NCBI GenBank assembly: GCA_907163375.1
Contig: CAJQUW010009239.1
Span: 372,001 to 436,000 of the forward strand
Direction: 5' to 3'
DNA from: Prostheceraeus crozeri
Lineage: Eukaryota; Platyhelminthes; Polycladida; Euryleptidae
Length of the DNA: 64,000 bases
The notes beneath the pieces are model-generated. The model worked only from the letters and a program-made list of their open reading frames with translations. It made no database searches and was not told where the DNA came from. The translations under genes were made by a program, and so were the position numbers. Each line of letters starts with the position of its first letter. Positions within the stretch are counted from its first letter, which is position 1. Positions 3,005-51,759 of the stretch are shown here, in pieces.

Positions 3005-3126
3005 GAAAACTCAGACTGCTGAGGAAAAAGGTGCACCAAATTTGTGAGCACAATTACTTTCAACGAGCTGTTTTGCTTGCAATCCTGTTTAATACATTAA
3101 GCATGGGTATTGAGCATCACAACCAG
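3005..3126 (+). CDS. Cav3 T-type calcium channel alpha1, exon A: entry to domain II, segment IIS1
   Basis: This internal coding exon of 122 bp enters with two bases of a split codon (phase 1 intron) and ends on a complete codon. The peptide has a basic run (KLRLLRKKV) followed by the first transmembrane helix of domain II, ending LLAILFNTLSMGIEHHNQ. The NTLSMGIE-HxQ signature is diagnostic of Cav3 (T-type) alpha1 subunits and differs from Cav1 and Cav2. The acceptor is TTTGTTTCAG and the donor is CAG/GTAAGC. The exon joins in phase 0 to exon B 16 kb downstream, and the combined reading continues the known IIS1-IIS2 sequence without a gap. The protein is a plasma-membrane low-voltage-activated channel. 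Its vertebrate homologues are CACNA1G, CACNA1H and CACNA1I; no species-specific symbol is assigned. Confidence 0.95.
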
Positions 3127-19104: not shown

Positions 19105-19256
19105 CCAATCTCATTGACTGAGGCTCTCGAATACAGCAATATCATCTTCAGTGGATTTTTTCTCCTTGAAATGGTCTTGAAAATAATCGGCAGTGGAATC
19201 ATCGAGTACATAAGCAGTGGCTTCAATGTTTTCGACGGAATAATAGTTATTTTAAG
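19105..19256 (+). CDS. Cav3 T-type calcium channel alpha1, exon B: IIS2 to IIS3
   Basis: This 152-bp exon starts in phase 0 (PISLTEALEYSNIIFSG) and ends after two bases of a codon. It encodes the IIS1-IIS2 linker, IIS2 (FFLLEMVLKIIG, with the conserved acidic residue that contacts S4 charges), the short loop GFNVFDGIIV and the first part of IIS3. The ALExSNIxFxxxFxLEMxLK pattern is that of Cav3 domain II. The acceptor is TTTACTTTCAG and the donor AAG/GTGAGG. The split codon AG/C at the junction with exon C gives serine. Confidence 0.96.
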
Positions 19257-21481: not shown

Positions 21482-21990
21482 GACGTTTCGGAATTCTGAT
21501 GATTCCATTCTCAAGTGACATATTACAAAGGCGCAAATTTATTCAATCATTAGTTAAATACTAGACACGCAAGTCTTAAAACAGTACAGTTCAGTGAACT
21601 CTTAAGTTCATCAAACACGACTAAATTGTAATTTCGCATGCCATCTTTGCAATTTAGGGTGGACTTCAACGATCTGATGAACACTGCTTCCAAAATTCGG
21701 AGAGAGAATGTTCTGTAACATTTTGCCAGAATTGTGAACTCTTCTTCGTCACACGGTAGACCATCAGGGTGAGACATTTTGTGCTGTGCAGTAGAAGAAG
21801 CTATCCACGCTGGAAGATCCAGTGGAAGAAGATATCTATGCTCACGTATACGGGTCTTTAGTTGTCGGCTTCTTTGTCCAACATGTGTCGCTTGATATAG
21901 ATGACATTGAAATTGATAGACAACCTGTGAACAGAGAGAATGATCTGGTTGCTTCCTCCTTCGATTAATGACAGCAGATATCTTCAAGGT
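21482..21990 (-). mobile_element. Penelope-like element fragment with GIY-YIG endonuclease domain
   Basis: A 145-codon minus-strand frame (21987 to 21550) contains VVYQFQCHLYQATHVGQRS followed by RQLKTRIREH, the GIY-YIG endonuclease core of Penelope-like retroelements, and then the conserved tail ILEAVFIRSLKSTLNCKDG. In the nuclease core the usual Tyr-rich GIY/YVGQT pair reads VVYQF/HVGQRS, so one key position is changed (THVG for TYVG). The reverse-transcriptase part is missing. Downstream on the same strand (21515-21482) lies a hammerhead-ribozyme-like core, as expected near a Penelope terminal repeat. Confidence 0.88.
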
Positions 21991-22565
21991 GTCTGTAAAT
22001 GTAGGAGCTTGGATGGCAAATCATTGTCCGAAATGAGTAATGAGTAATGAGCTGATGGCAAAAGTGGCCCATTTGCTTGATTAGGGACACAGTCAGATCG
22101 GAAGCGGATGAGGTTTTCGTAACTAAATACTCGTACATTGACCAGGAGAACGAGAAAGAGATGAATATTTTTGAATACAGTCAACTGAGGCATGAACTTA
22201 CGTTGAGACAGCGCTCCTCATAGCAAGTATTAAGCAAGTATTTTGCACAATAATAAAGTGCTGATCAGAAGAAAAAGAAATAAATATTTGGCAGTTTGCA
22301 GTCAACGACTTTATCAATAGAACTCGGAAGTAAAAGTCGGAAATCAGATTCTCCGAGGAAAACTTGCGGACAACTGATAATTTGCAGCCAAATGCATATT
22401 AACCGGAAAAATTAATCCCTTCTTCTGCCACAGTGAATCGTCCGTACCAGCAATTACCATTTATCAACGTCGTGTAGAGAGCAGTGTTATGATTTATCTC
22501 TACACTGTGATATTTCACTAACAGGAAAATTCAAAATGAATAAGAAATTCAAACTGTATGGGGTT

Positions 22566-28105: not shown

Positions 28106-28291
28106 CATTGTTGAGTTATGCCAAGGTGGAACGAGTGGTTTATCTGTGCTACGAACGTTTCGACTACTCAGGATTTTGAAACTGGTTCGGTTTATGCCTG
28201 CCCTCAGACAACAGCTTTATGTCATGTTGCGAACAATGGACAATGTCGCGACATTCTTTGCTCTACTAGTGTTATTCATTTTTATATTCAG
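28106..28291 (+). CDS. Cav3 T-type calcium channel alpha1, exon C: IIS3 end, IIS4 voltage sensor, IIS5
   Basis: This 186-bp exon carries one base of the incoming split codon, 61 full codons and two bases out. It encodes the IIS3-S4 loop ([10 protein letters not shown]), the voltage sensor [19 protein letters not shown] with five positive charges at every third position, the S4-S5 linker [19 protein letters not shown] and IIS5 ([12 protein letters not shown]). The correct reading differs from the longest ATG frame here, and the homology fixes it. The [20 protein letters not shown] block is a Cav3 hallmark. The acceptor is TATTCCAG and the donor CAG/GTGAGA. It ends AG, which needs a T from the next exon to make serine, and both alternative exons D and E begin with T. 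Confidence 0.97.
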
Positions 28292-28445
28292 GTGAGAAAA
28301 GTATTTGTTTTAAATAGATCCTTTTGATTTTACATCATCATTTAATGTTTTCTGGTCATGCAATAAGTAAAACTTGTAATAGCATCTGAATCAATCTTAC
28401 TTTGCTCGTCAAAATAAATAGGCCTCTCTATAGGACAGAGTTTCA

Positions 28446-28466
28446 GGTAATAATAATAATAATAAA
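28446..28466. repeat. (TAA)n microsatellite
   Basis: About six tandem AAT/TAA units within otherwise non-repetitive intron sequence. Confidence 0.85.
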
Positions 28467-28984
28467 GACGCATATTTAGAGAAAATATATGAAAATCCCA
28501 ATGATGGAAATCGTGGGATCCCATGTAAGAAGCATCAAAGTCAATCGTCAAAGATCGTCTATGATTGTCATAAATAGCTTATACGTAATGAGGAGACGAC
28601 GATAAGACAAAGGAACAAAATTGGTACTTTCACAATGCCAAGATTAACAGATTATGAAATGAGCACGGTTTTGAATTTTCTCCAATTCTTTTCACATTGT
28701 GAAAAGCTATTCGGAATGCGCACAAATGTCTCAAAAACAAATTCATTAAAAATGTGATGTATTTGTCTTTAGGAAAAGTTGTGCGAACCCGCAACATATT
28801 GCATTTAAAAATTTGGCATCTTCATATATTTTCGTGCATGCAGCCTTTACAAAAATTGTCGTTCATGAACAGTTCAGATGAAATATCAACCTGTTTAGGA
28901 CAGGAGGACGAGCACTGCTCTTTGCGTACTTTACTTTATCCGTTTAACGTCCTTTTCTCCACCTCCGTTGGTTTAGACGATGAT

Positions 28985-29440
28985 TCTTCATGAAATGCCT
29001 GCAGCTGTTACGATCAAGGGCGTCGGCTTCTTTGAGACCTTATTGCCGACAGTCTGCAGACACTGTCACTTTCCAGGTCTTCTTTGGGGGCCTCTTGGTG
29101 TTTGTCCGCTGTTCTTCATTTTTCATGCTTTCTTAACCCAGTCTCTGTTATCTTTCTGCACCACATGACCGTACCATCGCAATCTGCACACCCTCATAGC
29201 CTCATCGATCGACCGCAGGTTCAGGCTCGCCAGAAGGTCTTCGCTGGCAACTCTATCTTCGAGAGACACTACACACATCCATCTGCGCATCCTTCTTTCT
29301 GCTTCCTACATTCTCCTCTTTTCTGCAGCTGTCAAAGCCCAAGTCTCACTCTCATAAGTCATGCAGGCTCTGACGCATGAGTCGTAGATCTTTCCCTTCA
29401 TCCAGCATGAACTAGCACTGCTCGTTCTTGTTATTTTCAT
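28985..29440 (-). mobile_element. LINE 3' fragment (reverse-transcriptase tail)
   Basis: On the minus strand from 29440 the broken reading gives DEGKIYDSCVRACMTYESET, then WALTAAEKRRM, then EAERRMRRWMCVVSLEDRV, then LRWYGHVVQKDNRDWVKKA, and finally a GRPK-like RGPQRRPGK. This is the classic C-terminal part of invertebrate LINE reverse transcriptases (YGxExWxL ... E.RMLRWM ... RLRWYGHV). In-frame stops show it is dead. Compared with the 42.65 kb copy the wording differs, so it is another family or a diverged copy. Confidence 0.85.
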
Positions 29441-31842
29441 TCAACTGCTGAGTTGCTCAAATGAAAGTCAGACTCAAGTGCCGTGGACCTGTGCCCGTCT
29501 TATTTACATTGAATCTACGCCAACGCAGCAACGCTATACAGGACAGGCAATGCCCTTCCACGGCACTTGAAGCAGTTATCAAAATTGCTAACCCGTCCTC
29601 AAGAGATCAAACTGGTTAAAAATCAGCTGATTACATATTTGGCTGTTAACAGTAGCATAATAGAACCAAAACCGAAGGACTCCACTATTAGCTGTTTTCC
29701 GTCTAATAAGCTGGTGCGTAAATCAAAGTCAAAGAACGATCAGCTGTTTGCATAGATACATTTCTCAGTAAAGCTTAAATAATTTGCATCTGGCAGCTAA
29801 TTATAATATAGTAATAAAGCGCTCAGGTAGCGGCGAAGCTATTATTGAATAACGAAGGGCAAGTGTCGTCAAACATGAACAAATTGAACTCTCAATCCCT
29901 CAGTATTGGTAAAGGCTGGTTTTCGCCCCATAAGGGTTGTCAATGCAGTCCGACTCGTACATTAAGTCCATTAACGGAGAGTTTTTAAGTGTGAAGACCG
30001 ATATCTGTGATATATCATAATTTAAATGCCGCAAGAGTATTATCTTTTAATGTACTGCTTGTAGGACTTTTAATTGAAGCATAGTGACTTTTTTGTTCTC
30101 TACATAGCTACGAAAGACTATGTAAGCATAGACAGGCATTTAAATGTTAATAGTTACTATTTACTTCAGAAATTAAAACATGATAAGGCATCGCCGTTAG
30201 TGCATTTATTAGAATCAACAATATATTTCAACTACCAATACCAGTATAATCTATGTGCACGATTCTTATAACGCTGATAATTTTCCCTGCCTCTAAACGT
30301 GAAAATATTTTTGCGATTAACGTCTTTTATGACCTTTGATGATATACGGACGAAATCACGACATAAAGTAACGTTATGCAACTCAGTGTCATCTTGTCGT
30401 GTCGACTTTCACTTTAATCAACATTAGTTTTTACATCACGAGGTAGGAAGGTAATGAAACAAACGGATCATTATCGGCTACCATGATATTGTTATTTTAG
30501 TGTGTCGCATTATTACAACCATAAACCATTCTTCGTCGGTAAGCTGATCGTTATAGAAAAGCTGAATAATGAAAATTGATAGCTCGTACACACATTTTCA
30601 ATTATTGACTATTGATCATCACTGTTCTCCATTACGCAACATCGACGCTTCATGGCATGAACAACACTATATTATAGACCTTAAACAACATCTGCACAGT
30701 TGCCTAAATATTTATTTTCCTTTAAAATGCATTAAATAGTGGAAAATTCCTCAAATTCTGTACATGTGCCCACTTTTTCCAATGTCTTGAAGGTTTGATT
30801 TTATGGCTAACACACTATTAATTAATGATTTGCTTGTCATTGACTACGAATTCAGAGTTTGAAGAATTTCGAAACTAGTTTTGGGTGCTTCATAAAACAA
30901 AGTTTATGAAGATGTTTATTGTTCATTGCTTAATCGCTCACACCACTACTCATAAGTCAAGTGCGTTGAGAGCTATTTCTGCTTACATAACTAGATTGAC
31001 AACCAACCAACATTTAAGTTAATCTACGGAAGAAGCATGAGGTTCTATACATTAGCCAGTTTTCTAGAAATGCTTTGTGCATATGTAAGTGAGTCTAAAT
31101 TCTACAAGCTTGAATTCAATCTCCTGAATTTTCGCCATTTTCAGTTAGATCTTGCTGTTGATGATGAAATCTCGAAGCTCTTTATTTCAAATCAAAATTG
31201 AAAGTCAAACTCATAAGTCAAATTGAAATGTTTGCACAGAAATTTACGTTTTTGCTTGAACTTGATTTAGTTTGTTCAAATTTGAAATTAAGAAGGCGTG
31301 TTGATGTAGACATTCAAGGAATCGTTAAAAAATGAGACAATATCAGTACCGGTAGTCAATTAAGAATTGCGAGTTTCAAGAATAAAAATCATCACTTCTA
31401 CAAAGATAAATCATGTCTCTCTGAATGTACATCAAAATCATCTCTAAGGTTGTGATTGATGTATGAATTAAATACAGTGAATTCAATCTATCATGAAAGA
31501 TGCAAACTCCATTTCGAAATTAAAAGTGCCACTGATTATCTATTGTATCATGGTAAACATAGAGTCACATAGAATAACTATGGCTCGAGTAGAAATTATG
31601 GAGTGATTCAGTAAATGAACGGCTTGACATTTTTTATGTGGTTTAACTTTATCTGACTTTGTTTTTGGCTCTGGCTTACAAGAAAGTCTTGGAGCACAAT
31701 ATTTAGGAATCACTAGTGTAATAAACTCTAAACCGTCTCAAGAAGAACTATTGAAGATAAAAGTTACTAATAATCATTGGTGTTCTAATGAAATATTCTA
31801 AAATATTCCAGTTGAAATAAATGATTAACCTCGTCATTTCAG

Positions 31843-31960
31843 TATTCTTGGAATGAATTTATTCGGTTGTAAATTTTGTGACACTCAAGTTGGTGAGAAA
31901 CGAAAATGCGACAGGAAGAATTTTGATAACCTATTATGGTCAATTGTGACTGTCTTTCAG
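31843..31960 (+). CDS. Cav3 alpha1, exon D: alternative domain II turret and pore helix, three-cysteine form
   Basis: This 118-bp exon begins with the third base of the split serine codon and ends in phase 0. It encodes 39 residues: the end of IIS5 ([11 protein letters not shown]), a short extracellular turret ([13 protein letters not shown]) and the pore helix [15 protein letters not shown]. Three cysteines lie at residues 9, 12 and 22. The sequence closely follows the ordinary Cav3 domain II (LFGCKF ... DRKNFDxLLWxIVTVFQ). It can be replaced by exon E, 8.5 kb downstream, which has the same entry and exit phases. It splices to exon F, giving [10 protein letters not shown] across the selectivity filter. 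The acceptor is TCGTCATTTCAG and the donor CAG/GTATTC, a weaker donor than those of the neighbouring exons. Confidence 0.96.
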
Positions 31961-34900
31961 GTATTCATATACGTGTTCGCTCAATCTCGAGTGGCTTTTG
32001 ACGTAGCTCATGTAGAAGAACATTCGACGTCAGTTTTTGGTCACATTGCGCATGTAGAATAAGGAATTTTCTTCCGCGCTATCGAAGTGTGCTATTTCAT
32101 GCATTGATTTATTTTTACAACATATTCATTTACTTGATTGAGGAAAGGCGTATCTCTTTTTATTAGCGATATTATGTTGGCTTGAAATACTGGTTGGGGA
32201 GCTTTGTGGTGCTTGATTCCTTCATTATTGATGAATAACCAACATCGCATCAGACACGAATTTGTATTTGTTATACTCCTTTTCATAGCTGTGTGTGTTG
32301 CTGTTGGTTATTGTCAAATTCTATCAAAATTCAATGAGAATTGATTTTTAAGAAACGGTTGACATCGCACTCAAACTGCTTGCCATTCTTGCATCCTACT
32401 AATTCCCTCAAAATGTAAACAAATTATCATCAGAAATAATTCATAATTCAAGTAGATAATTGTTAATGTTCATTTAATTCAGTGATTACTTGCACCTGGA
32501 CAAAAGGTAATTGACGTTTCTGAGTCAGTAATCAAATGAGAAAGTTGCATTGAGGAACTTGAAATGCCCCTGACAGGTTGATTTATATGTTTTACTGAAT
32601 AGCTACAGTAAAAGTATCTCTTGAGTCAAACATTGTGACGACACATGTACATATGCATAAGGTAAATATTTCACGTAACTTAGTGAATCAATCATTTGAT
32701 CAAATAATAATTCCATATGTTCTTACTGATTTCAATTATCATTCCTCACACATGAAACGTGTATATATAAAACTGAGGTTTTGAGACGCTCTTGAGAAAT
32801 TTCTGTCGAAAGTTGGACCTTATACATATGCTGAAAACATGAAACAATCAAATTTCACAAATTACCTTAATTTAAGTATCACCCGCAAAATTTAATTTAC
32901 AAATCAGTCAAATTTATATTAAAATGATTATATCCTAGTATGCAGCTAGTAAACACGTAAGGTAAAAGTCAATAGAAACACTTCACAAAGGAGCACTCAA
33001 ACGGAACATTCCTTGCTCTTGCTGGACAAATATACCAATTTTCAACAGTTATTCGAGGGAAAGAAAAAAGAATCCGGACAGTCAGAATTAGATTTTTGCT
33101 TGTAAATATTTTAAAAGTATGAGTGGCTGACCGTTTTGCAAGCTTTCGACAAAATCAGGAGAAAGAAAACAATTTTTGCTGGTTTAAAGTCTTCGATTTT
33201 TTGGTGAGGTCTTTAAAAATGAAAGCGATACGGCAGGAATGGCAAGTTCAAGAGCTTTCTGCGTTTTTAATATTAGGAGGCACCCGAAATTAAAGCTTCA
33301 ACGGATTCAGGAGCACTCAACGTCAGTACCGTCTTTGATAGTTGACTATTAGTTTTTGATCATTAGGTCCATGTGAAATAATTGCACATTACACTCATAC
33401 TTCATTGCATTTAACATCACGATTTATGTCATTATTGCTTAAAATAATGATCAATTAACATGGCAATCGGTGAGCGCGTTACTGATGGTAAAAATCATGT
33501 GAGAACACTGTGAATAAAATAGGAAATGCAATAAAAATTTCAGGGTTGCCACCCACGATGTTCAAAGAAACATGTGTCGAAGTGGGCTGTTTTTGTAAAA
33601 GATGAATGGAACTTGAACTACATGTAGATCGGCTAGCACACTGTGATGCTATTGAAACAAAACACAATTATGAAGAAGATAGCTCAATAGAACTAATCAT
33701 CCCTCAGCTAGTACATTTGGCAATATCGACAAAACAGGAAAATCATTGGAACGTGCAATCATAAATATATATTTTTTACTCGAGCAAACAAATGCAACTG
33801 ACTTCCGTTCGTTGTAAGAGACAAGAAGCACAAACAAAAGTAAGGAGCGCAGAAAAAAGGGATGTGGTTTCGACATATGAGCAGGTGAACATTCTGTCCC
33901 TCGTGAATTATAAATGCCATACCATGTCTCTCTCTCTTTGGTGACTATGTTGTCAAAATGTAGGCTCTATCGCATTGTGGCTGAAAAAAAACACTAAGAA
34001 AGCCAAAGAAAGACACCTTAAACATGGCGCTACCAACTGGGAAGCACACATCAGACAAAGGCGAATTCTTTTCCGCTGCAATGTCCATCACAAGCATTTG
34101 CTGTAATTGAATTGCATATGAATTTTTACCATTCTACGATCCATGTGGCGCAGCTCTTGTTGAATTTCATCGGAGCAACAAGGAATAAAATGTACGAAAG
34201 TGACAAAATCTCCAGAAAGTATGCGAGTAAAGCGTAATATGCATGATGCCGTTCGAAATACCTGTTCTTCATGCGATATAATCTCCTTACCTGTTCATAG
34301 ACATGTCATAAGAAGACATTATTGTCCTATTACGTTAGTGAAATACATTTTTACTAACGATCAGCTATGGCTATCCTCAAGTCGAAGAAAAGTGATGGGT
34401 GGATATTCCTCCTGGTCCGAATGACAAGGGACATTATCGTGCATTTTGATGGTCATTGAGCTACACTCTGAGCACTCGGAAAGTGCGAACATCTGCTGCT
34501 ATCGAGTCTGACAACAAGCTAGGATGCAAGATGCGCAAATCAAATGTTATATAGGCCTACATAATCGCTATAGTTGTCAATCTCTAGAGGTAATGGTGAA
34601 TTTACGCAATTCCAATTTTCAAATTTCATTGATTAAAGTTGTTTGTCCTTGTATTATAAAAGAAACGACTCAAATAACTCGTGGAGGAATTGATTGCTAT
34701 GGATTGCACATCGAATGAGATGTGCTTCACTGTGACACCTGAAAATGGACAAATCTAAAGCTGCAATAATTTCTTCCAACTGTGTGTGGCCGTTGAGAAC
34801 GCTAACCTGGAAGGCAATTATTGAGACGTGTAGTTCGACTGTGGGAATAGTCGACCTAATCCAACAATGAGTCTTTCAAGTCACTCAAAGGTGTAGAAAA

Positions 34901-37900
34901 TTGTAAATGTATAGAAAAATATGATTTGAAAATACAAGTCAAACCAGGGACTAGTGGTAAATTGTCTTTCCATGACCTTTGTCATGAGGTAAATTTTAAC
35001 TTTGAAAGGGGAAAAAGAAATATATAAAGTTTAAAATTGTTATCGCTATGAAAGGTTGTTTTCAAATCAATTATTTATCATGGATAGAGATTCGTCCGAT
35101 TTTCCTATTTCTCTGTTTCGTCCGATTGACAAATGTTCAATGGTCAATTTCCTAGTAGCAAAAGAAAACATAATAACATGGTAAGTTTTCAGACCATACT
35201 TCTCGTATTAGTAAAAATTAAGATACATTCATAACAAACGGTAGACCTTCAAACTCGGAATGCCGTAATCCTATCTGTTATCGTGTGATAAGCATAATAT
35301 AATAATTGTGTATCTAGATATTTATTTCGATAATTAGACAGTTAAATTTTATGATGCACTCAAAAGATTCTTGACTACCTGTATCTTCGTGTTGACAGCA
35401 AACATGTTTAAGACTTCTCCTCAGTCTATATTTTTACATTATCTTGATTACTAGTCGAAATTTGATAAAATTTGCTAAAATATTTGCACGAGAATCAATG
35501 TTTATGCTTGAATATCAAACATCAAAATGTTAATAATATAGCAGTGGAATTATTAATTGGATGACACGTTTGGCTTGCTATCTTGGTAAATTAAATTGAT
35601 TCATTATTTACGCAAAAAGTGTAGATTTACTCATGAGAACATGTAGAGATAGTTGTAGATGTTGCCTAACGATTCAATGAAAGCCATGTCTGGAGAAAAG
35701 ATAAATTTCCAGGGTAAATATAAATTTCCTATCTCAAATTTCGACGGATTTGGATCCGTTTCTGTGATTCATAAATATTAGTTTAGCACTCATGGCTTGC
35801 CAAATTTCATGTCCTCTTAAGTTAGTAGAAGATATTGTTGATCATTGCCTTGCGGAGAGATAGATAAATGGTCCTAAAGATTTTCTTGTTGAAATCAGTA
35901 TAAGTATATAATCGTTCCTTGAATATTCTTTGAGGTAAGCGTGTACATGTATGTTGCATACTTGTGTGTTTCACATACAGCACGTGACAAAGCTTCTTAG
36001 TACATCTTCGTTTTATTTCAGTCTTCGATTATAATTATAATTATGCTTTGTATTTTAAGATTACGAATTATATATTGCTATAATACATAATTAAGAATTC
36101 TCATCAACTTAGTGAATAATCTCTAAGCTAAGATTCGCTTCATATTGCGATCATTCCTATTGCCGGCGCTTAGATAGTCAAGTGTCTTGCTCGCGAACTA
36201 ATGAATAAATGTATAATCATAATAATGATGTTATGACAATAGCGTTGAAAACATAGGAGTAAGTTACGCCAATGCTTGATCCACAGTGCGTAAAAATGTA
36301 GAGTTTGTGTAACAGGATCTCTGAGTTTCATTGTGCTTGGAAATTAGAAATCATTTCTGTATATTTCATACGCCTTATTTGTTGCCGATCATATTGATCG
36401 ATCACATCATTGCCTGCTTGTAGTACATGTATACACGGATACCATGTTTTATACAAAATTATGTTTGCGGTCGAACTTCATGTATCATTGTATTTAAAGG
36501 TGAGAATGATTTATTGGTATTTAGTATCATCGTGATTTAGGATTTTAATAGAAGGAAAAATTAGCAAGGTTGCTGTAGTCATGAGACAACTTGTCGGCTT
36601 CCAAGATAAAAAAACCAACCTTTGTAAACCCATCATTTTTAAGTCACTTGATCGATGAAATCAAATCATAATTCTGTTTATTGGTGATTTTGTCCCAGTA
36701 TGCATGTACATGACACGTGCATTCAATGCATTAATACGAGTAATTATATTATATGTGCTGAGTATGTGCAAAATATTCGCATACCTAATTATGTATTCTT
36801 GGACAGTAAAAATAGCCTGTCAGACATATCCCACTAAAAATAGCTAACTGAAATTGCATCGAATGCTGTCGACAGCTTCTTCACACTCTTGCAAGCATAA
36901 TAAAATAAAAAGCAATGCTATTTCTTGGTTTACTACATATCATGCTACAGTAGTAAATGAATCATTGAAACCCTCAGTTTCAAGTAATCAGCTAAATTGC
37001 ACTATATATAGGTCTGCACATTACTCCATGATAATCCTGAAAATTGAAATATCTTTGAATAATGTGCTCCGAACAAATATGCTTTCTGATGATGCATAGG
37101 TCAATCTGAAAATATCAATTAGGTCTATATTTTGAGGAAAGCAGCAAATCGGCAGCTATCGCACTATCATGGCTACCATATAGCCATGAATTAAACAGAT
37201 TTATAGGCCTAGATGGGTATCGTAAAATTTCCAAATATGATAATAAATCTTCGTTTCACATTTAATTTTTTTTTTAATTGTCTTGAAACGTTATAATAGT
37301 GTGGAAGAGACGTATTACAAAGCTCTCCTCCCCTCTTGCAATCAATGAATATTTTCTAAAAGCTAAAAATTGATGAGATAATGTCTACGATTTGACAATG
37401 TATTCGCCAATTCTCAAAGTAGATACTCATTTTGAGTTTGTATCTCAGGTTGATCGCATGCGCTTTGTGTTTCGAAATTTCAAACGTTTCGAATGTTAGA
37501 CATTTATTTCGATAGTAAAAAGGCATGGTGGTTTGATTTAGACCTGAGTAACTAACATTCCAAAATCAGACAGCTTGGATTGCAACTACGCTAATAACAA
37601 GCCGTTTTTGTAGTATTCCTCGCATAGTTTTGTGAGAGAAAAATGATTGATGCCCTTTAGAAAACTAGTACGTTACCATCGTCATTTTATGCTACTAACC
37701 CCGTCACTAATGGTCAATATAATATCAGATACATTAACATTGATGGTGATTCGAAAACCCTTCGTTTTGTGTCAGGTATACAAATCCATTTACATTAGTA
37801 ATCATAACTTATGACATTTATACTTGTGGCACTTCAGTAGAGCATAGCAGTAAGCAACATTGACTATGTTGAAGGATTTTGCAAGATACATCAAGAATAA

Positions 37901-40425
37901 CAATGAAAGTTCATGATTCGTTTGATGCCAGATATACAATTGTCAAATGTATGGAAGCTGTTCAATAAAACTTGTGGATATTCATTTCAATCATGGAACA
38001 AATGTAGCTGATACAATTGTGAGACACACGGTTACAGGCTTGCATAATAGATACAAAAACGTAATACAAAAATTATCCGAAAGAATACAGGAGGAATGTG
38101 CGAAGATACGTGAAAGTAGATGTGGCTCTTTTGTTTTAATCTCTATTTGTACTTATATTTCGTAGTGATTTCTGCATTCTTACTTATGTCAATGATCTTA
38201 CATATTGTCTCTCAATTGTAGAGAGCCATTTTCTTTATCTTAACTTGAAATGTGATGAAAATAATTTTTATCGAAATGTACATTGACACAGTGTTTAGAT
38301 ACACCATAGCTTCATCACAATTCAGAAGCATACTTAATCTAAGTCACTGAAAAAATTGCTGAACAATCGCAATAGCATGCATTTTTCAACAGACGTCTAA
38401 CTGAAATTTTGCTCTTCAAACTTTAATTTAACCACCTACTTCAACATAAGTGCGGAAATAATTTCCAAGGATATGAAAATTTTACGAATGATTTTGATCA
38501 TTGAATACGAATAATCACATGTCATATTTATTATTGATTTGAATAAATAATATCTAGAAAAAAATTATTATAAATGAACTGCTGATTTTCAAAAATGCAG
38601 TTTCGTAACAGTGTTCACTCATAGCTTGTGGCTTAAACAAAACTACGTTGCTAAGGATTTGCAATTTATACACATTATCTAAGATTTGGAAAAGATTAAG
38701 ATTTGTGGTGTAATTCAATATTCAAAAACTTGTGATGTACTCAATGCTGTCAATTCTTAGAGGAATTATGCGTACCTAATATGAGCTATATCAAATGATG
38801 AATTGCAATCACTTTGAGGAAAGGTACATTTGACAAGAGTAGAATAGCAGCAAACCACATTACTGTCTCCCGATGAACTTTTAATTTTATATCCGACTTG
38901 TAAGAGAGTAAATAGATTGATAGCAAATATTCAGAGTGACAATAAATCAATAAAGCGAAACATAAATTATTTCCATTTCTTTCTTGCAAGAAATTTCAAA
39001 TCTGGAAACCAAGGATATCTGTGATCATTGCATGTCTTATGCGTAATTAACTTCTTTCTAGCATCATCAGTAGCACATAATTAAGGAAAAGGTGAATGTT
39101 ATTTAAACTTCTTGAGTATGCATCTCTACAATTTCAATAATGTGTTAGATACGAGTGCATCAAATACATAGCAAATAAGATAATGTCAACTTGGATGTGA
39201 TAATTGACGTAATGCTAAAAAGTAAGCACACTCTGTATAACAAATCAAACTTCAATAAAAACATGTCTAGCAATGATCTACACGAAGCGAATGCGCATTG
39301 TTATTATATGCTCCAATGTTCTCTATATCTGAAAAGCAATATTCAATAACATGCAAAAAAAGCAAGCAAAGAATAACAGATGTTACTTCTCAATTACCTA
39401 TTAATTGAAAATTGATTTAGATCACATTATGTTCACCGGCATTCAGCCATTGCATCCAAGTACTTCTAAAAGAACACAACAACAAAAACAGTATCTGCGA
39501 TCAGAACACCATAGATATTGTAATAGTCCTTAATTCCCCCAATCGATGTTATGCTCAATGTTATCTAACTATCTACGGAAGGTTCGCGAAAACATAATTT
39601 TAGCCATTCAAGAGCAATAGCGGCATACTGCAAGCATACGTGCGTGCAGTATGATATCAAAGTAGTTTCCTATTTCTGAAGTAATTGGAAGTCTATTCTG
39701 AACACTAAAAATTCTATTATCAAGATATTTGAACAGATGTAAGGTAGACTAATGGAATTCTTATTATCGAATTTACTGCTCAGAACAAAGATGTTTCAAA
39801 TTTCATCTACATGTACGTCAGGTTGCATGTCACATGCTGCCATCTCTTTCGATCCCAACACTTCTGGATTAGTGCGCAGTCGTCCAGCTCTTCACGCAGT
39901 CTATCCAGACTCTTCACTGTCTACTCATATCCTTCGACCACAGACATCTGACATTGTTTAGAATAGACTTCCAAATACATAGATTTTTTACTTCTGATAA
40001 TTCTATCATTACTTGCGTTATACCGTTCTCCTTGGCTTTCTAGTTTCAATTTTCTTGCTATGATGAACGACAGCTAATTGAATACATAGATCAATTGTAT
40101 GGGTCGAACGGATCTAGTATTATATCATATCTGCTAAGTTTCCATGGCAATTCATTGTAATGTAAACATTGATTCGCATCATCCTTCAACATATCTTTAT
40201 TATTTTTGATTTTTATTTAAACTGGTATTATATCGACCCGACCCTTTCACTCGGAACACCGCGCTGTCACAGCTACTACACTCCCTTTCCCTTTTACTGA
40301 GAGCTCTACTCAGATCCAACAATAAGAAAGAATCCACTCATAGAGGTTGTTGTCTTTGAAAAATACTGAAACAAAAAAATGTGTCTCCAAGCGTCCGCAT
40401 TTGTGTGTCCTTTTTTGCACTTTAG
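31961..40425 (+). other. Intron between alternative exons D and E (about 8.5 kb)
   Basis: No further copy of the turret exon (pattern NFD..L.W..VT.FQ) was seen between D and E, and no clear transposon domain. A 72-codon frame at 37947-38165 (hydrophilic, VIQKLSERIQEECAKIRE) is unrecognised. The region is AT-rich throughout. The acceptor of E is preceded by a strong T tract (CCTTTTTTGCACTTTAG). Confidence 0.8.
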
Positions 40426-40603
40426 TAACTTGGGCATGATCTTTTTCGGAGGCAAGTTCTGCTGGAGACCAGATGGTAGCAAATGTGGATGCAGCTATCG
40501 AACAAAGCACTACCACGACGCAAGTCGAGCTGGTAACACGTCTTGCTACTGTGAACGAGCCAACTTTGATACACTGCAATGGGCGGCAGTGACCACTTTT
40601 CAG
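40426..40603 (+). CDS. Cav3 alpha1, exon E: alternative domain II turret and pore helix, five-cysteine form
   Basis: This 178-bp exon has the same phases as exon D and encodes 59 residues, 20 more than D. It starts NLGMIFFGGKF (compare [11 protein letters not shown] in D), continues with a longer turret with cysteines at residues 12, 20, 22, 40 and 42 (CWRPDGSKCGC ... TSCYCER), and ends in the pore helix ANFDTLQWAAVTTFQ. Homology at both ends and identical splice phases show it arose by duplication of exon D. In invertebrate Cav3 channels (for example Lymnaea LCav3) an alternative exon 12 of this type is established, and its cysteine-rich version makes the channel more sodium-permeable. That function is inferred here, not shown. 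The acceptor is GCACTTTAG and the donor CAG/GTAGCC. The exon is richer in G and C than the flanking intron. Confidence 0.95.
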
Positions 40604-43600
40604 GTAGCCAGTCGATTGCCGACAATACAGTCTATGCGTGCAAGTGCCTGAATGAGTAGAAATGAACCTTTGTGGTTCGATCAATATCTCATTCGTGTGG
40701 TGTTGATCTGTGTGTTTGTTTTCTTCATCTTAATGACAACCTACCTTTTTTCATCTATTTGAAATTTTATTGTTTTAGATGTAACTGTTTGCATTTTTTC
40801 GCATATCTTTACTTTTGATTGGGGCTTACGTTGATATCAAGAGATAATTGAAATGAACATTCATAAGTTTCAAAAGTGAATTTCTAAAGTTTTTTTGCAT
40901 CAAATTTGTATGAAATAAAATTATATTACTCGTCGACTAACATTTTACTGAATTCACCATGCATGCGACGAAAAACATTCCAATGAAAAAAATTGTAACA
41001 TTATTACTTTGCATTGCTCGATTTCTTTTGAGAGCTTGGGATGTAGCTGCTACACTATACACCACGTTGTCTCAATTCTCAACTAGATAAACTGGTCTGA
41101 TAATTAAATTTGATGAGTTACTTTATTCACAGATGTCTCAAGTTAAAAATCACGATTATGCTACTTTTTGACTTCGATTTGATGACATCTAATATCCAGT
41201 GTTTCTAAAGCTTCGATTCAAATCTCACTAGGCTTATTATCTTTCGAGAATAGCAGTATAGATGTCAAGCAATGCAATGAATAAATGACAGATTTGATGA
41301 ATTGATGTCATGTTCAAAAATGCTGATTCTCTTGGGGTAATTATAATTATCTGATGCTTTTGACAGCACTATCCAAGCCAGTGGGGCTTGTTGCATTTTT
41401 TACCAACATCAATCTGAAATATCAATAAAATTTTGACTAAAGTTCAAGAGTAAAGTTCACGAATCTAGCCGAATCACAAATCACTATGGTGTCATGAGAT
41501 CTAATTCGCACAGAAATCACTGAGTGTGTAAACGTGAAGTTGATATCAGTCTCAAATCGGGAATATCAAACAAAACTAAAAATGAATCACTTACTTGACC
41601 AAGTAAGACCATCGACAAAGCGAGAGACAATGGCTGAAATATTTTATCTAAAAGTTTTCATGAAATAAATCACTTTGCAAAAATTTACTTTTGGCTTTTC
41701 CTCGGAAGCCATGGAATCGTTCGTTGAAAACAAAAACTAAAAATGATAAGAGACTGCAGTGCGTCATGTATCCTACAGTAAATATGAAATTCCATTAATC
41801 TAGATTTTAGCCTCGCGTTAAGTTCCAAGTTCAGAGAAATGGAGGAAAATGGAGGCATCAGGTGCAAGCGAAGCCAGCAACCATTCGACATTAGAAGTCA
41901 GAACTGATCATCATAGAGAAATTGAACTCAATCTAATAGTGATAGACATGAAAATGTCTTCTCTGAACAAATCATCTCATACTTCGACGCATTGAGCAAG
42001 CAGGCTGCATATCCATATTACAGTTTAGAAAACGGATCGCCGGTGACCTCAGATTACATAAAAATAATTGCATGTGTTGCAATTGATACGACCTTTGGGG
42101 TCTTCGGCATATAGAAAATCGAGTCAAGTTGCAGTTGTAGACTTTGCACATTAAAAGGTATGCATGCAGCTACATAGAGACTTGGAAGGAATACAACATG
42201 TTAGATTTTCTGAAAGCGATTTTCTTGCACTGATTGCAGTGATTTTCTTATCTGAATATGCTATGTAACATCACGAGGTGACTATCCAAGTCCTTCATTC
42301 ACAATGGTTCAATTTGCACGCAGTATGATATAATCACTTTCACAAATTGGATTAGAGCCTTTAATGTTTGGATGATTACTTGGATCATGTTCTATAGCTG
42401 AGGTCCTACATTCATGCCAGTTCATGCCAAAATTTAACCGAACTGCCAATAATAGCCTTGTCTCCTATAGAAACCAAGTTGTAGATGAAGTTGCCGGCTA
42501 AATATAAACAAGACATCGAATGAAATCTGTTTACGTCATTTAATAAATGTGGAAGTTTCCACAAGGGTACAGAAGAAATATCACAATGCTACTGCACAGG
42601 CGATGTTAAGATCAATAGTGAATGATCATAAAGGAAGAATTTGATTCGGTACTTGCCCTATCAAACTTAGGTGCTACGTGTGGTCGGTACTTCTCTATGG
42701 ATGTGAATCATGGTCCATAAATCAGACGATGCGGGCAAGGTTGGAAGCGGCGGAGATGTGGTTCCTCAGGCGGATGCTGCGCATCCCTTGGATACAGAAA
42801 ATTAGCAACGAAGCCGTACTCGAACGCACACATATACATCAAGGCAACTGATGATGACCATCTTTACAAGACAAATACGGTTCCTTGGTCATGTCCTTCG
42901 GAAGGAGAAATACGAAGATGTTGCTCTAACCGGCAAAATTGAAGGAATGAGAGAGCGCATACGTCAACGATTGTCCTTCATGGGGTGGCTTGGGAAAGCG
43001 ACGGGCAGGAGAGCCACCATCATTAAAATGTGCAAGAGACGAGAAGAACACCTGATTGTCGCCAACGTCAGCTTCTGACACGGCACTACTGATTGATTGA
43101 CTTACCCTATACGAAAACTATTTCAAATTTTCCAATGTTGATGAACAATATCATTTCCGATATTTTCAAAAAAAAACAGTTATCCGATTTTTGAAATAAT
43201 CTAAATGAAAACCTAACTAACCAACCTAAGATGGGTTGACTTCTCATTCACTCTAAAGCCATGCGCTACGCAGACTAAAATCAGCTTCTAACACCACATT
43301 GGAATGCATAGAAATCCGACACTTAATATTATCAGCGGACATGTACACTGAAGACTATATTACGTTGAGGACACGCGCTGATGCTTTACAGCAATACCTG
43401 AAGAATGACGGCTCCCAGGGGCAGACAATTCTTTTCATTCGCAGAACTTCACTTTGTGTGTTTCAAGGACAAGCGCCAGTACCATGTCAGTGTATTTTGA
43501 TTTTGTGATGACTCGAAATTATTCTCAATCCTGTTAAAGCATGAAACAATTATGGTAGAATAATTTACAATCAATGCAGGAATCTACAACTATTATATGT

Positions 43601-46600
43601 CTCGACATTCATGCAGCAACAATGACCTAGATCGGTGCTTATGTGGGTAACTGAATGATCCATCAACACATGTCACCATTCTCATCCTGATAACTTAGAT
43701 AAAGAAAAGTGAAGAGTCGGATTTCTATTTTAAAAATAACAAATGTTTGAATGATTTGTCGACAAATCTGGCGAACAATTCTGTCGGATCTGCGTTGAAA
43801 AACAAAGTTCAGAAAGTCATAAATAAATTAGAAAATGTTGATGAATGAATTGATAGATCGATTATCTCTTGAATCAAACAGTTTTACTCCATTCAATATT
43901 TCGTTTGTGTGAGATTGATCAGGATTTTACATCACCTCACATTGGCATTGATATATTTTTATATTAATTGTACACCGCTCAAAATTATTGCAAAGGTCAC
44001 CTGTTTAAGCATGTTCAAATCCTCATGTATCCTATTTATATCATGAGGAGATAATATGGTTGTCTGTAGTATTTGCGAATATTTAGTAAAACAGTAGCAT
44101 GTAAAGGTCAACTTTCAAATTTTAAAATTGCAGCAGATTAAGCATGAAGCTTCGTTTATAGATCCCGTATTATGAACAGATCCCATTTTCCCATTTAAAT
44201 CTCATTTTTGAAGCTTAAAATAATACGCTTATCTATTGATATGTCTGAATGTGAGTGTCAAAGACTGTATTCTTCCATTCGTTTCTAAATCTATCATCTT
44301 TATCTGATATATTGTCAACCTGACTCTTTAAATACTCTTGTGATTGTTTCCACTGGCCATCCATACTGCTATCATTCCAACGGAACCTACTTGTTTTGCA
44401 TGGCTTTTCATGTACATGTAGGTATAATAAGATGCTAAACTGCGCTTGCTATTACGGTGTCTTTCAGCAGACTGTTTCAAACGTTCGATGTTTTTGTATT
44501 TCTGCACCATTTTTCAAGTGTGTTCTCAATATGTCTTTTGTGATTATCTGTCAATGGTCGATATCGTGCATAATTTCCTACTTTTTGTTTTTATGACTGT
44601 ATGCTCATGAAGATGTTTTTCAGGAATTTATGGATTGTGCATATTAAATGTATACATAATTTTTTATATACTACTACTTTGTAATATATGCATATGAATT
44701 TCATGCATGTCAAAAATTTGATGGATAAAATGCAGCTATATCTTATGCAAACATGTGTTGAATATTGACGTTTTAGATGTACAGTACAGTGTCAATAACG
44801 CATGGATACTTCCATCAAATGATTAAAGAAAGACCATGAAGGCGCTCAAGTATTATTCCTATTATACTTCTTAGCATTATCTTTGTGTCAGTTCGAGATT
44901 GTACACATGCTTTTTCTGCTTTTATAAAATACTGACAATCAACATCGTTCAACAGTACTTTGCATCAGAATTGTGTACATTTATTGTGCTATTTTTTAAA
45001 TGTTCAACATCGAATGAGTTACTTTGTTTATTTTAAAGATGCTGATGTACTGTAGCCTAATCTGCATTTTGTAAAATAATGCTTTGCTATTAAGTTTTAT
45101 CAATGAAATCTGATTGCGTGTTGGTAAAATGCATTTCGAACTACTACACGTCTATATTTGCTCGATTTGTCTGACAAAAACATGTAAATGCAACGAACAA
45201 GGGAGATTACATAGCATTTTGATCGATTTCTATCAGTGCTGTGTTTTGAATAGATAAATGAGAGATATGTAATTGCATGTAGCTGCGATTACATATTCTG
45301 TGTAATTTCGTCCACAATCAAAACCGCACATCACTTTAATCTTTTTGATAGAAATTTTACATTTTCAGAACTTTAATTGAGGATTTTCTATTGATATCTT
45401 TCGAGATGCACTTGCTAAAGAAAATAAAAGAACCATATTTTTCATGATTGGGTAAAATATTATGGATTGCTTTAAGTCATTCAAACTAATCGAAAATGCC
45501 AGGAATCTAAGTTCACGAAAGCAATCAGCTTGTGAAGGAAAATATCATTAATGACAAAGTGAGATTTTCTCTCATCATGCGATATGCGATGGATGACAAT
45601 TTTTCAATATGTAAAGATTTCCACATTCCTGTAGTACGTATGTATGCAAGTAATACATCTTCAGTTTTCATAGACTTCGAAAAACTGAGCACGTAATCAA
45701 ATCAAAATCTAGGCCCTATTACATAAAGAAGGTAATCTCTTATGCAGTGTATAGATTTACCAGCATTTACCTTGTGTCAGTTATCATACAAGCAATTTAT
45801 TATTAGCATTCAATGAAGTTGAAAAATAAAAGAATACGTAAAATATTGATCACATTTGTTATGTCTAAGTTGTGATGATGGCTGTTGTATATAAATCCTG
45901 CAAAAGCTCATTGAGTCAATACATGAGAAGTACCAGAGATATCTTTTATCTCATCGAGAAGTTCGTCAAAACATGCCATTTCAATTATTAGCTATATATT
46001 CTATTTCATTCATGCCCTCTATATAATTTTATGCGATTTTTTTATTCATGTGAATGCAACAATGTTTATAAACAGTTTGCAGAAATACAGGCACAGAAAA
46101 TCGAAACGCAAATGCGAAGGATATCCAAATGCTCTTTAATCAGTTAAAAATAGCAATTCCTCCTACAAAATTGAATATCAATCATTTTGAAAAGCGTCGC
46201 CTATTCAGCAATCGATTCAAGGCCATTGATTGTCCTTACTATTTAGAGCTAGAATCATGAAAAGAAATAGTGATTTCAAATCTTGTTCAGATTTTAACAG
46301 TAGGCCTAATAACCATTATAAAGTAATATAGAATCACATTTCACCTCGGCAGTATCTGCCCTGTAATGCTCTCGATTACATGTAATTCAGTTTCCATATC
46401 ACTAATGGAGTAGTAAGTTTATGCGACTACAATACAAGAAAGATACATTTTTGTAGCTTTGATTGCTAGCACGCAGCAACAGAGTGCTTCGATGGCGTAG
46501 GTAAAGAATTGATATTTTTTACAAAAAAGTAAATTTCGTCCAACGATTCGTCCTCAGCCTGATCACAAGGAAGACACAGATTTGTACATGCTGCATCAAC

Positions 46601-47600
46601 ATTATCGTTAGCTTTTTCATTGTAAGCATGAAAAAGGAGCACATGTACAATATATACGTGCATTGAATATGTATAGTACGGTATTATAAAGAATAGCTTG
46701 ATTTATTGATAATTTTTTCAAGTCTCAATCCATGGATCGACCTGATCAGTTGTGGACAGATATGAACCAGCATCATCGGAACAGAGGAAGTACAAACATA
46801 GTGAGCATCCAGGCATGAGAAAATTTTCAATAGCCAGGTAGGTTTCTTGTTTAATTACACATTAAAAGCGCAAGCAGGGTTTACCTGAAGCGCCTCGGAT
46901 GCGATGATGATTATCGAATGCAATCTGCTCTATGGTGTCTACAATTAGGAACTGTTAATTGACTAAATCATGCTTTCAACAGATGATTTGGTGGACTTGT
47001 GATAGGATGGCATTCTTGAATATCCTCTAGATCCATCGTCGCTGAATCACATCTACCCACGACTGAAGCAGTCCAATAAGTCGAAACAAACAGTATCTTT
47101 CTCATGGTGGTTACATTTGCTGAATTTTTATAGATAACTATTGTAGTGCGTATAGATGTGCACTTCCTCTATATGTAATCGGGTTACTGAACTGGTGAAA
47201 CTTCTATCCAGTTAAGATCCTTTATCGGCAGGTTGGTTCGTTCTCTAGTCAATTCAAAAGTTGATTTATAATTTTCAGTTGATTTATAATCTAATACCAT
47301 TGTTATCTGCCTATTTTTCCTCATGTCACTAACCTGAGTTGAAATGCAAACCCTATCTGTCATTGATATGCTCTAAAAAATTATCTTTTCAGTGTCTGAC
47401 TTTGAGGTAAGTCACTATTTCCTGCAATTCTATTTTTACAAGGATGAATGCAATACTATACACTACTATAAAAATAGACAATAACTGTATGATTTACAGG
47501 ACTTGTTAAGACTTCATGAGTATACAATCTTGCAATGTCTATCTTATCTAAGTGAATTTGATGATCGCGATTTGTATAGCAATTTCATATCTTTTGTCAG
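40604..47600 (+). other. Intron E-F of the Cav3 gene (about 7.0 kb)
   Basis: Phase 0 intron with GTAGCC donor and CTTTTGTCAG acceptor. It contains one LINE 3' end (42.65-43.1 kb). The stretches 40604-42650 and 43103-47600 are AT-rich, with nothing I can classify. Confidence 0.9.
42656..43102 (+). mobile_element. LINE 3' end (reverse-transcriptase tail), RTE-like
   Basis: The plus-strand reading starts IKLRCYVWSVLLYGCESWS, continues LEAAEMWFLRRMLRIPW and ISNEAVLERTHI, meets a stop, and resumes in another frame as IRFLGHVLRKEKYED, LTGKIEG and RIRQRLSF to a stop near 43080. This is the conserved C-terminal segment of a LINE reverse transcriptase. The final bases TGATTGATTGACT may be the simple-repeat tail typical of RTE-type elements. 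The 5' part is absent, as expected for a truncated insertion. One frameshift or stop lies at about 42848. Confidence 0.87.
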
Positions 47601-47756
47601 ATACTCTCTCAGGAAGACTGGAACGCTGTTCTCTATACGGGAATGGCACGAACATCGCCTTGGGCGTCGCTTTATTTCATTGCATTAATGACTTTTGGAA
47701 ATTACGTGCTGTTCAATCTTCTCGTCGCCATACTGGTTGAAGGATTCTCATCGGAG
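47601..47756 (+). CDS. Cav3 alpha1, exon F: domain II selectivity filter and IIS6
   Basis: This 156-bp, phase 0-0 exon encodes 52 residues. [15 protein letters not shown] holds the domain II selectivity-filter glutamate (Q-E-D-W), one of the four acidic residues of the EEDD filter of T-type channels. [12 protein letters not shown] and [19 protein letters not shown] form the IIS6 pore-lining helix, and the exon ends FSSE. It is constitutive and receives either exon D or E. The acceptor is CTTTTGTCAG at 47600. A second AG lies 12 bases inside the exon (after CTCTCTCAG) and would remove ILSQ if used. The homologous sequence supports the first. The donor is GAG/GTAAAT. The next coding exon (II-III linker) was not identified with certainty. 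Confidence 0.97.
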
Positions 47757-49185: not shown

Positions 49186-51759
49186 TCAACCGACCAGCTC
49201 GTGCTTACGGTTTAGATCTGGATTCCTATCACGTAAGTACATAGCTTCTTTTAGACGAGCTTCTATTGGTGATTTACGTTTGTCCAGAAAATGGAGGTCA
49301 AAATCTGAAATGGATATATTGCTGCTATGATTACTATTAGCATGGTCAGAAAGTGCACTAATGTTATTGGATAACATGAGGCTACTACCATGTTCTTTAT
49401 AACGAACGTAGAGAGGTCTGCTGCTTGGACACATGTAAGCCTTATTACAAAGTCTGCATGTAAATTGATAGACGACAAAACGGTCATCACAAGCAGAGTG
49501 ATCGTCAATATTGACACAGATCTCACAATTAGAGTACTTACGAGTCCTATTATTGCCATTTAGTTGCTGATTTAATTTTTTACTGGGTTTGCTTATTAGG
49601 GATAGTGGCAGATAAAATTTTTTTAACAAAGGAATTGAATTTTCTATTGCAACTATCATTTGTATACTTAGTGGTCATTTTAACAGTTTCTGATTTCTCA
49701 TCGCTTTCCTGTTGGATTTACTTTTATTTTTGAAGTCGCGACGATTGTAGCCATTACTACGCATTCGGTCATGCATAATTTTCTGTGGACTATCTTTTAA
49801 CTCACGAGTCGAACAGCGTTTTTCTATGCGCTGCTCAGTAGCAGCAATGAAGTTGTTTTTAACGTGTTGAGGGACCCAACTATCTTTTCTCAACATTATG
49901 TTCGAATTAGATGACTTAGAGTACCATTTTAAGATTATTTCCTCGTTCTCAATAGATATGACAATATCTAGGAGGTTTAAACTAGAATTTAATTTAGGCT
50001 TGTCAATGGTGAATTGGATATCTGAATTGATAGTGTTAAAGGTGTTTTATTTTTCCGAAAACACTCTCGTCCCTATTTAAGGGACCCATGATGATATCAT
50101 CAACGTACCTACAGAATATTTGAGGCCTGATGCCTTCGTTGTTAAGGTCTTCGAAAGCATGAGTCTCAATGGTATGAACACTGATGATGGCGAACGGCGG
50201 CGCGAAGTGGGAGCCCATAGAACAGCCATGAATTTGTAGAAAGATATCTCCCTCGAAACTAATCTCATAATTGTTCGCAATGAAAGTTCATGTCATCTAT
50301 CGTGAGACCCAGGTTATCAATTTTCCTCCAATGCTCACTGGAGAATTCTAAAACACATTCTGTATCGAAATGTATCGGAATGCTCGGGTATAGGCTTAAC
50401 TACCGAAATGAAAGTGTGGTTATTTGTAAGGGATTTCTTATCCACTTGTTGAAGAACATTAATAACAGACTCAGTGTTGTGTGAGTGGGAAGGGATAAAT
50501 TCTATCAGTTGGTTGAGAATTTGAGTAATCAGCCAGTCAACTTTTTGGGTAGGACTATTTATCGTCGAGGCAATAAGCCTCAATGGAAAACTATTCTCAG
50601 TACGGTTTTTGTGATCTTTTATGTAAGTATTGAATTGAGCTGGCTTGCTCCCACAAGACTTAAGTTTCTCTTGTTCTATTCTACTAAAATTATTTTTGCA
50701 AATAGTGTCGATGATTTTATTCGCCTGATTTTCTATATGACTAGCTTTAGATTTATGAATTTTACGATAGATTTTATGGTCACTGAGTAGCTCACGGGTA
50801 TTGTCTTTATAATCAGTTGCGACAACTATATTTGTTATATCGGAAGTCACCGCAACTAGCTGGTTCCTCCCTAAATAACGCTTCGTGCTATTAGTGCATT
50901 TTGTTGTTTTTTTGTAATTATGATTATTTTTGGCATGCTCAACTTCCCGTTTAACTATGTTTAAAGTTTCGTGTTTGAACAGATTAAGGTTCAACTCCAA
51001 CTCCTCCTTCATTTTAGGTGCTAGGGTTGCGCGATTCCTATGGCAAGGAATGTTTATCTTACTATTGGTGTTGCTATTATCATTTTTATGAGCAGCTTTC
51101 CATCTAAGTTTGTTAGTAAGTACCTCCAATTTAACTTTAGAATCTTCCATGAAGTGATCGTTCAGTTGGGGTGGAACCCTGAACTTCGGACCTTTTCAGG
51201 GCAGTCAAGTACGGATATGAGTAAAGGAGCTTCAAAATTGACTGTGACTCTGGTACGATCTACCGAAGACTCGAGCTGGTCTGCCGAAGGAACTTCTCGC
51301 CTACGAAACCAAAGCTTGTCGACATGCGTGAAAGGAAAACTAGGCTGGTGCTTAAAATAGCAAGCGTCGATGGACAAAGGATACGGAGATCCAGTTAACA
51401 CCATCCACTTCTTCGAGTGTCGTTGAAAGGTGATTTTCTCCTCCGCAAACAGCATCTTCTCAATCTGTTCCACTAAGTTCTCCACAATCGCTGAGTCATA
51501 CAGTCGGGTCACTTTTAAGTACTCATACCCAATCATCTGTTGCAGTTCTTCAGTCTTCCGCTGGGAGATGTAGATGCTGCTTCGAAGAAGTTCTTTTTTT
51601 CAAATAGGCCATCTTCCGCTTGATTGCTTCACTTTCCAAGTCACTCGGTATCGAAGAGAACCAGTTTGATAGACAGGTTTTGAGATAATCAGTTTTTACC
51701 AGACACTGAGACTGCGACTCCCTCGCGAAACGTCTGTCTGCTGTATATATTTTCAGCAT
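49186..51759 (-). pseudogene. Penelope-like polyprotein remnant: RT plus GIY-YIG
   Basis: Minus-strand pieces in order: 51759-51550 and 51536-51162 (N-terminal region, one frameshift in a T-rich run), 51150-50335 (271 codons, with KPAQFNTYIKDHKN and FPLRLIASTINSPTQKVDW, the early Penelope RT motifs), 50280-50036 (GCSMGSHFAPPFA, then the catalytic CRYVDDIIMG), 49896-49675, and 49659-49186 (157 codons, with CEIC, DRFVVYQFTCRLCNKAYM and the tail SPIEARLKEAMYLRDRNPDL of the GIY-YIG nuclease). The YVDD motif is intact. Five or so frameshifts or stops separate the segments. Penelope elements move by RNA copying, with a reverse transcriptase related to telomerase. Confidence 0.9.

Follow-up and report, generated by a model that had tools for sequence, protein, structure and literature searches.

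The closest described counterpart of the locus analysed here is the exon 12 pair of LCav3, the T-type calcium channel of Lymnaea, reported by Senatore 2014 (as cited in PMC4436565), Guan 2020 (PMC7382465), and Guan 2022 (PMC9694082); what is taken from these papers, and from PMC10120453, refers to excerpts of their texts. In LCav3, the short three-cysteine exon 12a, with lysine at the so-called switch position, makes the channel strongly sodium-permeable, and the long five-cysteine exon 12b gives greater calcium preference (PMC4436565, PMC7382465, PMC9694082), with sodium and calcium contributing about equally in the 12b form according to PMC7382465. The residues concerned are C1051, C1054, C1064, and K1067 in LCav3-12a (PMC7382465, PMC9694082), and C1054, C1062, C1064, C1073, C1075, and A1078 in LCav3-12b. 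PMC9694082 numbers the 12b alanine 1078 and also 1089, and one passage of its Discussion swaps 12a and 12b; where it conflicts, its abstract and mutant data, which are mutually consistent, were followed. According to PMC9694082, exchanging Lys and Ala at the switch position in Lymnaea exchanges the ion preference, and in the model proposed there the lysine forms a salt bridge with the aspartate that follows the domain II glutamate of the filter. Reported lengths are 38-46 aa for exon 12a, with the pattern CxxC...C, and 48-55 aa for exon 12b (PMC7382465).

PMC7382465 names alternative forms of exon 12 in a platyhelminth, Macrostomum lignano, and two Cav3 genes are stated for flatworms (PMC7382465, PMC10120453). 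Because both had already been reported in flatworms (in the excerpts of PMC7382465), the exon pair described below adds to a known system. Alternative domain II pore exons are also described for lophotrochozoan NALCN, in which exons 15a and 15b change the predicted selectivity (PMC4436565).

Exons D and E of the window gene

The window, that is, the whole stretch of DNA that was analysed, comprises 64,000 nucleotides of the genome of the polyclad flatworm Prostheceraeus crozeri. The following domain II features of one channel gene were identified in it:

3005..3126, + strand: exon A, domain II S1; found by tblastn with a human DIIS1 fragment, with splice sites and a frame open into B
19105..19256, + strand: exon B, domain II S2-S3; tblastn, splice sites, and open frame
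28106..28291, + strand: exon C, domain II S4-S5; its last two nucleotides, AG, open a Ser codon; Pfam Ion_trans 7.4e-10
31843..31960, + strand: exon D, 118 nt, 39 aa; end of IIS5, three-cysteine turret, and P1 helix; 12a type
40426..40603, + strand: exon E, 178 nt, 59 aa; end of IIS5, five-cysteine turret, and P1 helix; 12b type
40426..40428, + strand: in-frame stop TAA if D is spliced straight to E (first E codon in the D frame)
47601..47756, + strand: exon F, remainder of the P-loop, filter SQEDWN (Glu and "beacon" Asp), and IIS6; phmmer against human Cav3.3, E 1.7e-30

Exons D and E were each flanked by AG upstream and GT downstream. In both, the initial T completes the Ser codon (AG|T) begun in C, and both finish at a codon boundary before F; the flanking exons C and F, presumably constitutive, were present and in phase with D and E. 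The cysteines of D are C9, C12, and C22, with Lys25 at the switch position. Exon E encodes NLGMIFFGGKFCWRPDGSKCGCSYRTKHYHDASRAGNTSCYCERANFDTLQWAAVTTFQ, with cysteines C12, C20, C22, C40, and C42 and Ala45 at the switch position. An N-glycosylation sequon (NTS, residues 37-39, 40535-40543, + strand) was found in the lengthened inner loop of E, and none in D. A 139-aa open frame antisense to E (40310-40729, - strand) was also noted, most likely as a by-product of exon composition.

The frame A-B-C-D-F was open without a stop over 244 residues, and likewise A-B-C-E-F over 264 residues. Joining both exons (A-B-C-D-E-F) put a stop (TAA) at the very first E codon, and joining neither (A-B-C-F) shifted the frame and then gave a stop, because the lengths of D and E both equal 1 mod 3. 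Since double inclusion and omission are both stopped, a full channel would be produced only by single inclusion of D or E, and from these reading frames we infer that the two exons are mutually exclusive.

Full-length D matched the human T-type channels in phmmer with E-values of 3.3e-09 to 9.5e-09, the next match being an N-type channel (0.059), and F matched human Cav3.3 at 1.7e-30 versus 2e-11 for an R-type channel. E alone matched the human T-types weakly and at its ends (best E 0.19), and it was unrecognised by Pfam Ion_trans at E 0.05. The gene is thus probably a Cav3 (T-type) gene, and not Cav1, Cav2, Nav, or NALCN. Within the window, D and E matched each other by tblastn at 32.7 bits (E 4e-06); among 200 dinucleotide-preserving shuffles of the whole window none reached this score, the best being 24.3 bits. 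A splice-bounded turret-like pattern occurred twice in the window, with a mean of 0.025 and a maximum of 1 in the 200 shuffles. The scan for this pattern, covering both strands in one phase with set end motifs, detected no third turret exon in the window, and the remaining tblastn matches of D and E to the window all had E 0.37 or worse. No Rfam family matched the window at the gathering score.

The arrangement of residues was compared with the Lymnaea exons. In D, C9-x2-C12-x9-C22-x2-K25 has the spacing of LCav3-12a throughout, and in E, C12-x7-C20-x-C22...C40-x-C42-x2-A45 has that of 12b save for a longer inner loop; the switch residue lies three positions after the last cysteine in both, as Lys25 in D and as the neutral Ala45 in E. 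Because this spacing agrees with the Lymnaea residue numbers, D corresponds to 12a and E to 12b. At 39 aa with CxxC...C, D is within the reported 12a description. E has the 12b pattern C...CxC...CxC and is longer than 12a; its 59 aa, like the 47 aa of its counterpart E' in a paralogous gene (see below), fall outside the 48-55 aa reported for 12b, which is a descriptive range and not a defining one.

The original prediction had placed D and E at the end of IIS5, the turret, and the pore helix of a T-type channel, with common entry and exit phases, 39 versus 59 residues, and three versus five cysteines. These boundaries proved correct to the base, the phases, sizes, and cysteine counts were confirmed, and the family is supported by the matches of D and F to human T-types. 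The homology it had seen at the two ends (LGM..FG.KF and.NFD.L.W..VT.FQ) was found again in both motifs and in the D-E alignment, and its order, with D first and E about 8.5 kb downstream, agrees with a D-E intron of 8465 nt. Its link to invertebrate Cav3 exon 12 gains support from the cysteine and switch spacing. The implied polarity, with the cysteine-rich E as the sodium form, has to be reversed, since the published sodium form is the short three-cysteine 12a, to which the vertebrate-like D corresponds. Family, location, exon-pair architecture, and the exon 12 link therefore stand; the polarity does not, and a second Cav3 gene had gone unnoticed. It is very probable, in our assessment, that the locus is the 12a/12b pair of an invertebrate Cav3, in which the choice of turret exon sets sodium/calcium preference.

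The pore and the predicted ion preference of the two forms

The selectivity filter of the window gene is EE(D)DD, as read from exons that are collinear on contig C7668 and on one strand:

Domain I, L045: filter Glu, LESW
Domain II, exon F: filter Glu-Asp, SQEDWN (QEDW)
Domain III, L040: filter Asp, SSKDGW
Domain IV, L003: filter Asp, ATGDNW

The domain IV L6 loop carries the tetra-cysteine pattern C..C..CC, as CDSSEECVRNCC in L003 and as CDDSGDCVTNCC in the paralogue. This loop also occurs in other invertebrates, is needed for the full sodium effect, and is tied to larger sodium current (excerpts of PMC7382465). Three cysteines, PCEDQVCVSVRC, were found in the domain I S1-S2 region (L037), where a turret-tether cysteine is expected, and are candidates for pairing.

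D, as the 12a type, is the predicted sodium-permeable form and E, as the 12b type, the predicted more calcium-preferring form; we infer the currents of the two forms, the disulphide bonds, and the salt bridge from Lymnaea. As proposed, either D or E, and one only, would be joined between C and F, and an mRNA with both exons or neither would terminate prematurely. In the D form, the C12-C22 disulphide would hold a lysine next to the domain II outer-pore aspartate, whose charge the lysine would neutralise, so that sodium passes. In the E form, alanine would occupy the switch beneath a turret that is longer and internally braced by two disulphides, the aspartate would stay charged, and the channel would remain more calcium-preferring.

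In two alignments, human Cav3.2 and Cav3.3 were found to have lysine at the position aligned with Lys25 of D. The calcium selectivity of Cav3.2 is among the highest of the T-types, and Cav3.3 is mixed (as given in PMC4436565). Lysine alone is therefore an insufficient marker, because the calcium-selective Cav3.2 carries it too, and for the same reason the disulphide-braced loop must matter as well; extra intraturret disulphides are argued to be necessary in section 19 of PMC9694082.

The same human lysine bears on a further reading, which we consider unlikely: that D and E are true alternatives that chiefly adjust kinetics, the tethering of the voltage sensor, or block by metals, and not sodium/calcium preference. 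Cav3.2 carries this lysine and is no sodium channel; in Lymnaea, exon 12a slows every kinetic property that was measured, and changes of the loop cysteines alter zinc and nickel block (both in excerpts of PMC9694082 and PMC7382465); and the expected tether cysteine is placed differently in the two exons, as C9 in D versus C20 in E. Against it, the K/A difference at the switch is exactly the exchange made in the published mutants, and the gene has the domain IV loop that the full sodium effect requires.

A second Cav3 gene and the introns of the pair

The genome searched comprised 2,048,925,868 bases in 14,165 contigs. A second Cav3 gene was identified on contig C11242 at 82-273 kb, with exons of all four repeats (L012-L031, L002, L005, L038), and contains its own pair of turret exons:

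C11242:181983-182103: exon D', lysine at the switch; GT-AG
C11242:184699-184840: exon E', ELGIALFGGKFCSHADGSPCCCHKRNICVCDRENFDTLLDALVTVFM; 47 aa; GT-AG

As in the window gene, the paralogue frames were open with one turret exon and stopped with both or none, double inclusion of D' and E' giving a stop after 23 codons of E'. Searching the genome with E returned at least three matches, namely E itself, the matching exon of the paralogue, and, weakly, the other turret exon of the paralogue; the search with D likewise returned at least three, of the same three kinds. No further turret exon was found among the matches listed for D and E. Mitochondrial COX1 was also present in the assembly (L039, C6227:15936-17282, - strand) and read sensibly with AAA = Asn (DRNFNTTFF), ATA = Ile, AGA = Ser, and TGA = Trp, that is, with the echinoderm/flatworm code; the residues behind this reading are ones that we take to be conserved in COX1.

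Protein identity between the window gene and the paralogue was 24/40 for A, 34/50 for B, 54/61 for C, 31/38 for D, and 45/52 for F; E and E' were identical at 26/47 aligned residues, with a 12-residue gap (12 residues of E unaligned). Third-position identity was 0.35-0.47 by exon, and dS was not estimable. An uncollapsed haplotype was rejected in view of these exon protein identities (26/47 to 54/61) and the low third-position identity. The duplication of Cav3 is old and, most simply, the doubling of the exon preceded it. Since an unused exon would be expected to be destroyed by drift, we regard the survival of the complete exon pair in each gene, at such divergence, as the best evidence here that E is used.

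The same comparison bears on whether E is a relic of exon duplication, still open in frame and now spliced rarely or never, with D as the sole working turret. Among the six exons compared, E differs most between the genes (26/47 plus the 12-residue gap; next A, 24/40), and Pfam Ion_trans fails to recognise it at E 0.05. This reading is nonetheless improbable, as both genes have intact splice sites, frame, and 12b cysteine positions even though their third positions are close to random. The GC content of E (0.49) also exceeds that of the D-E intron (0.34; window 35.8%), a weak point because D itself has 0.34. Slightly less probable still is that E, or joint inclusion of D and E ending at the TAA, acts as a poison exon that lowers channel dose via nonsense-mediated decay, for although translation of C-D-E-F would end with the first codon of E and that of the paralogue equivalent after 23 codons of E', E is a complete in-frame channel-like turret whose five placed cysteines would be needless in a pure poison exon, and the stops simply follow from D and E lengths of 1 mod 3.

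With E read as the 12b exon, its counterpart E' is unusual in that its switch residue is Glu (CDRENFD), where 12a has lysine; in the mollusc and nematode 12b exons described in excerpts of PMC9694082, this residue is neutral. E' has six cysteines, the middle residue of the first CxC being Cys too, and carries Asp in place of the P1 tryptophan and Met in place of the last Gln. At the P1 tryptophan position, human Cav3.3 has Y, W, Q, and M in repeats I to IV, respectively, and at the last-Gln position the window gene has V in repeat III and R in repeat IV; because both positions vary among repeats, these two changes alone do not mark E' as dead. In the main-text excerpts of the Cav3 exon 12 and flatworm literature consulted, no description of an acidic residue at the switch was found, and the charge-reversed paralogue exon, known from one genome, may be new. 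More speculatively, the two Cav3 genes with two turret exons each might form a combinatorial set in which the residue facing the beacon takes one of three charge states: Lys in both 12a exons, Ala in the window 12b, and Glu in the paralogue 12b. The Glu would add negative charge near the beacon aspartate, so that calcium would be bound and preferred beyond known T-types, and the duplications would have set up a graded sodium-to-calcium series; we hold this extension to be doubtful.

Regarding the choice between D and E, no splicing-control element was recognised in GCATG counts, inverted repeats, or an intron comparison with the paralogue. One Rbfox-type GCATG occurred within 500 nt downstream of each of D and E, with 0.7 expected from the window average. 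Steric exclusion and U2/U12 incompatibility are general grounds for exon exclusivity; neither seems to apply here, the D-E intron being 8465 nt long and the six exons GT-AG with no U12-like donor. Eight pairs of inverted repeats were found in 28292-47600, the best pairing 39681-39704 with 39955-39978 (22/24, 92% complementary) about 450 nt upstream of E. The surrounding 311-nt stretch (39675-39985, + strand) had an RNA fold z of -4.58, and 0 of 100 shuffles were as stable. It was not found whole elsewhere in the genome, its inner parts matching two other places at 78%, and the hairpin may be either a splicing element or a fold-back repeat.

Comparison of the introns of the two genes gave 97 matches, only one of them strong (next best, E 0.056): window 46960-47062 (+ strand) with C11242:188540-188642, 103 nt, 71%, E 1.7e-08, within the E-F introns of both. 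As this sequence had at least 41 matches in the genome, it was rejected as a conserved control element and is a dispersed repeat. The paralogue copy contains a GGTTCGAACC box and presumably resembles a tRNA-derived SINE; ARAGORN detected no tRNA gene at the window copy.

Other repeat-like sequences were observed in the window. A reverse transcriptase fragment (3600-4361, - strand; 254-aa open frame; Pfam RVT_1, E 3.1e-15) lies in the intron after exon A. Open frames at 49189-51599 (- strand) and 21553-22020 (- strand) had no Pfam match, and their look, we presume, recalls Penelope-like retroelements with a GIY-YIG end.

Comparison with described systems

In the present analysis, the turret switch and the geometry of its cysteines and lysine were found in a polyclad flatworm, in which both copies of an old Cav3 duplication have kept both turret exons. 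The Glu of the paralogue 12b provides a naturally occurring test of the beacon-neutralisation model, under which glutamate in place of the lysine should shift selectivity in the opposite direction. Because human Cav3.2 and Cav3.3 carry lysine there too, such a test would concern the disulphide loop as well as the lysine.

The pair is like exons 12a and 12b of Lymnaea LCav3 in its site at IIS5-P1, in a short three-cysteine versus a long five-cysteine exon, in the patterns CxxC..C and C..CxC..CxC, in Lys versus Ala three positions after the last cysteine, in the C..C..CC domain IV loop, and in the domain II ED motif. It differs in that 17 residues separate the inner cysteine pair in E versus 8 in LCav3-12b, in the 59 aa of E, and in the presence of two Cav3 genes in the present animal. 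With the published flatworm Cav3 genes it shares two Cav3 per genome and exon 12 alternatives (as given in PMC7382465). NALCN exons 15a and 15b work similarly, as alternative domain II pore exons, and the present pair is not a member of that system: in NALCN the filter residue itself changes (EEEE/EKEE), whereas in the window gene the variation lies in the turret and the filter stays as it is.
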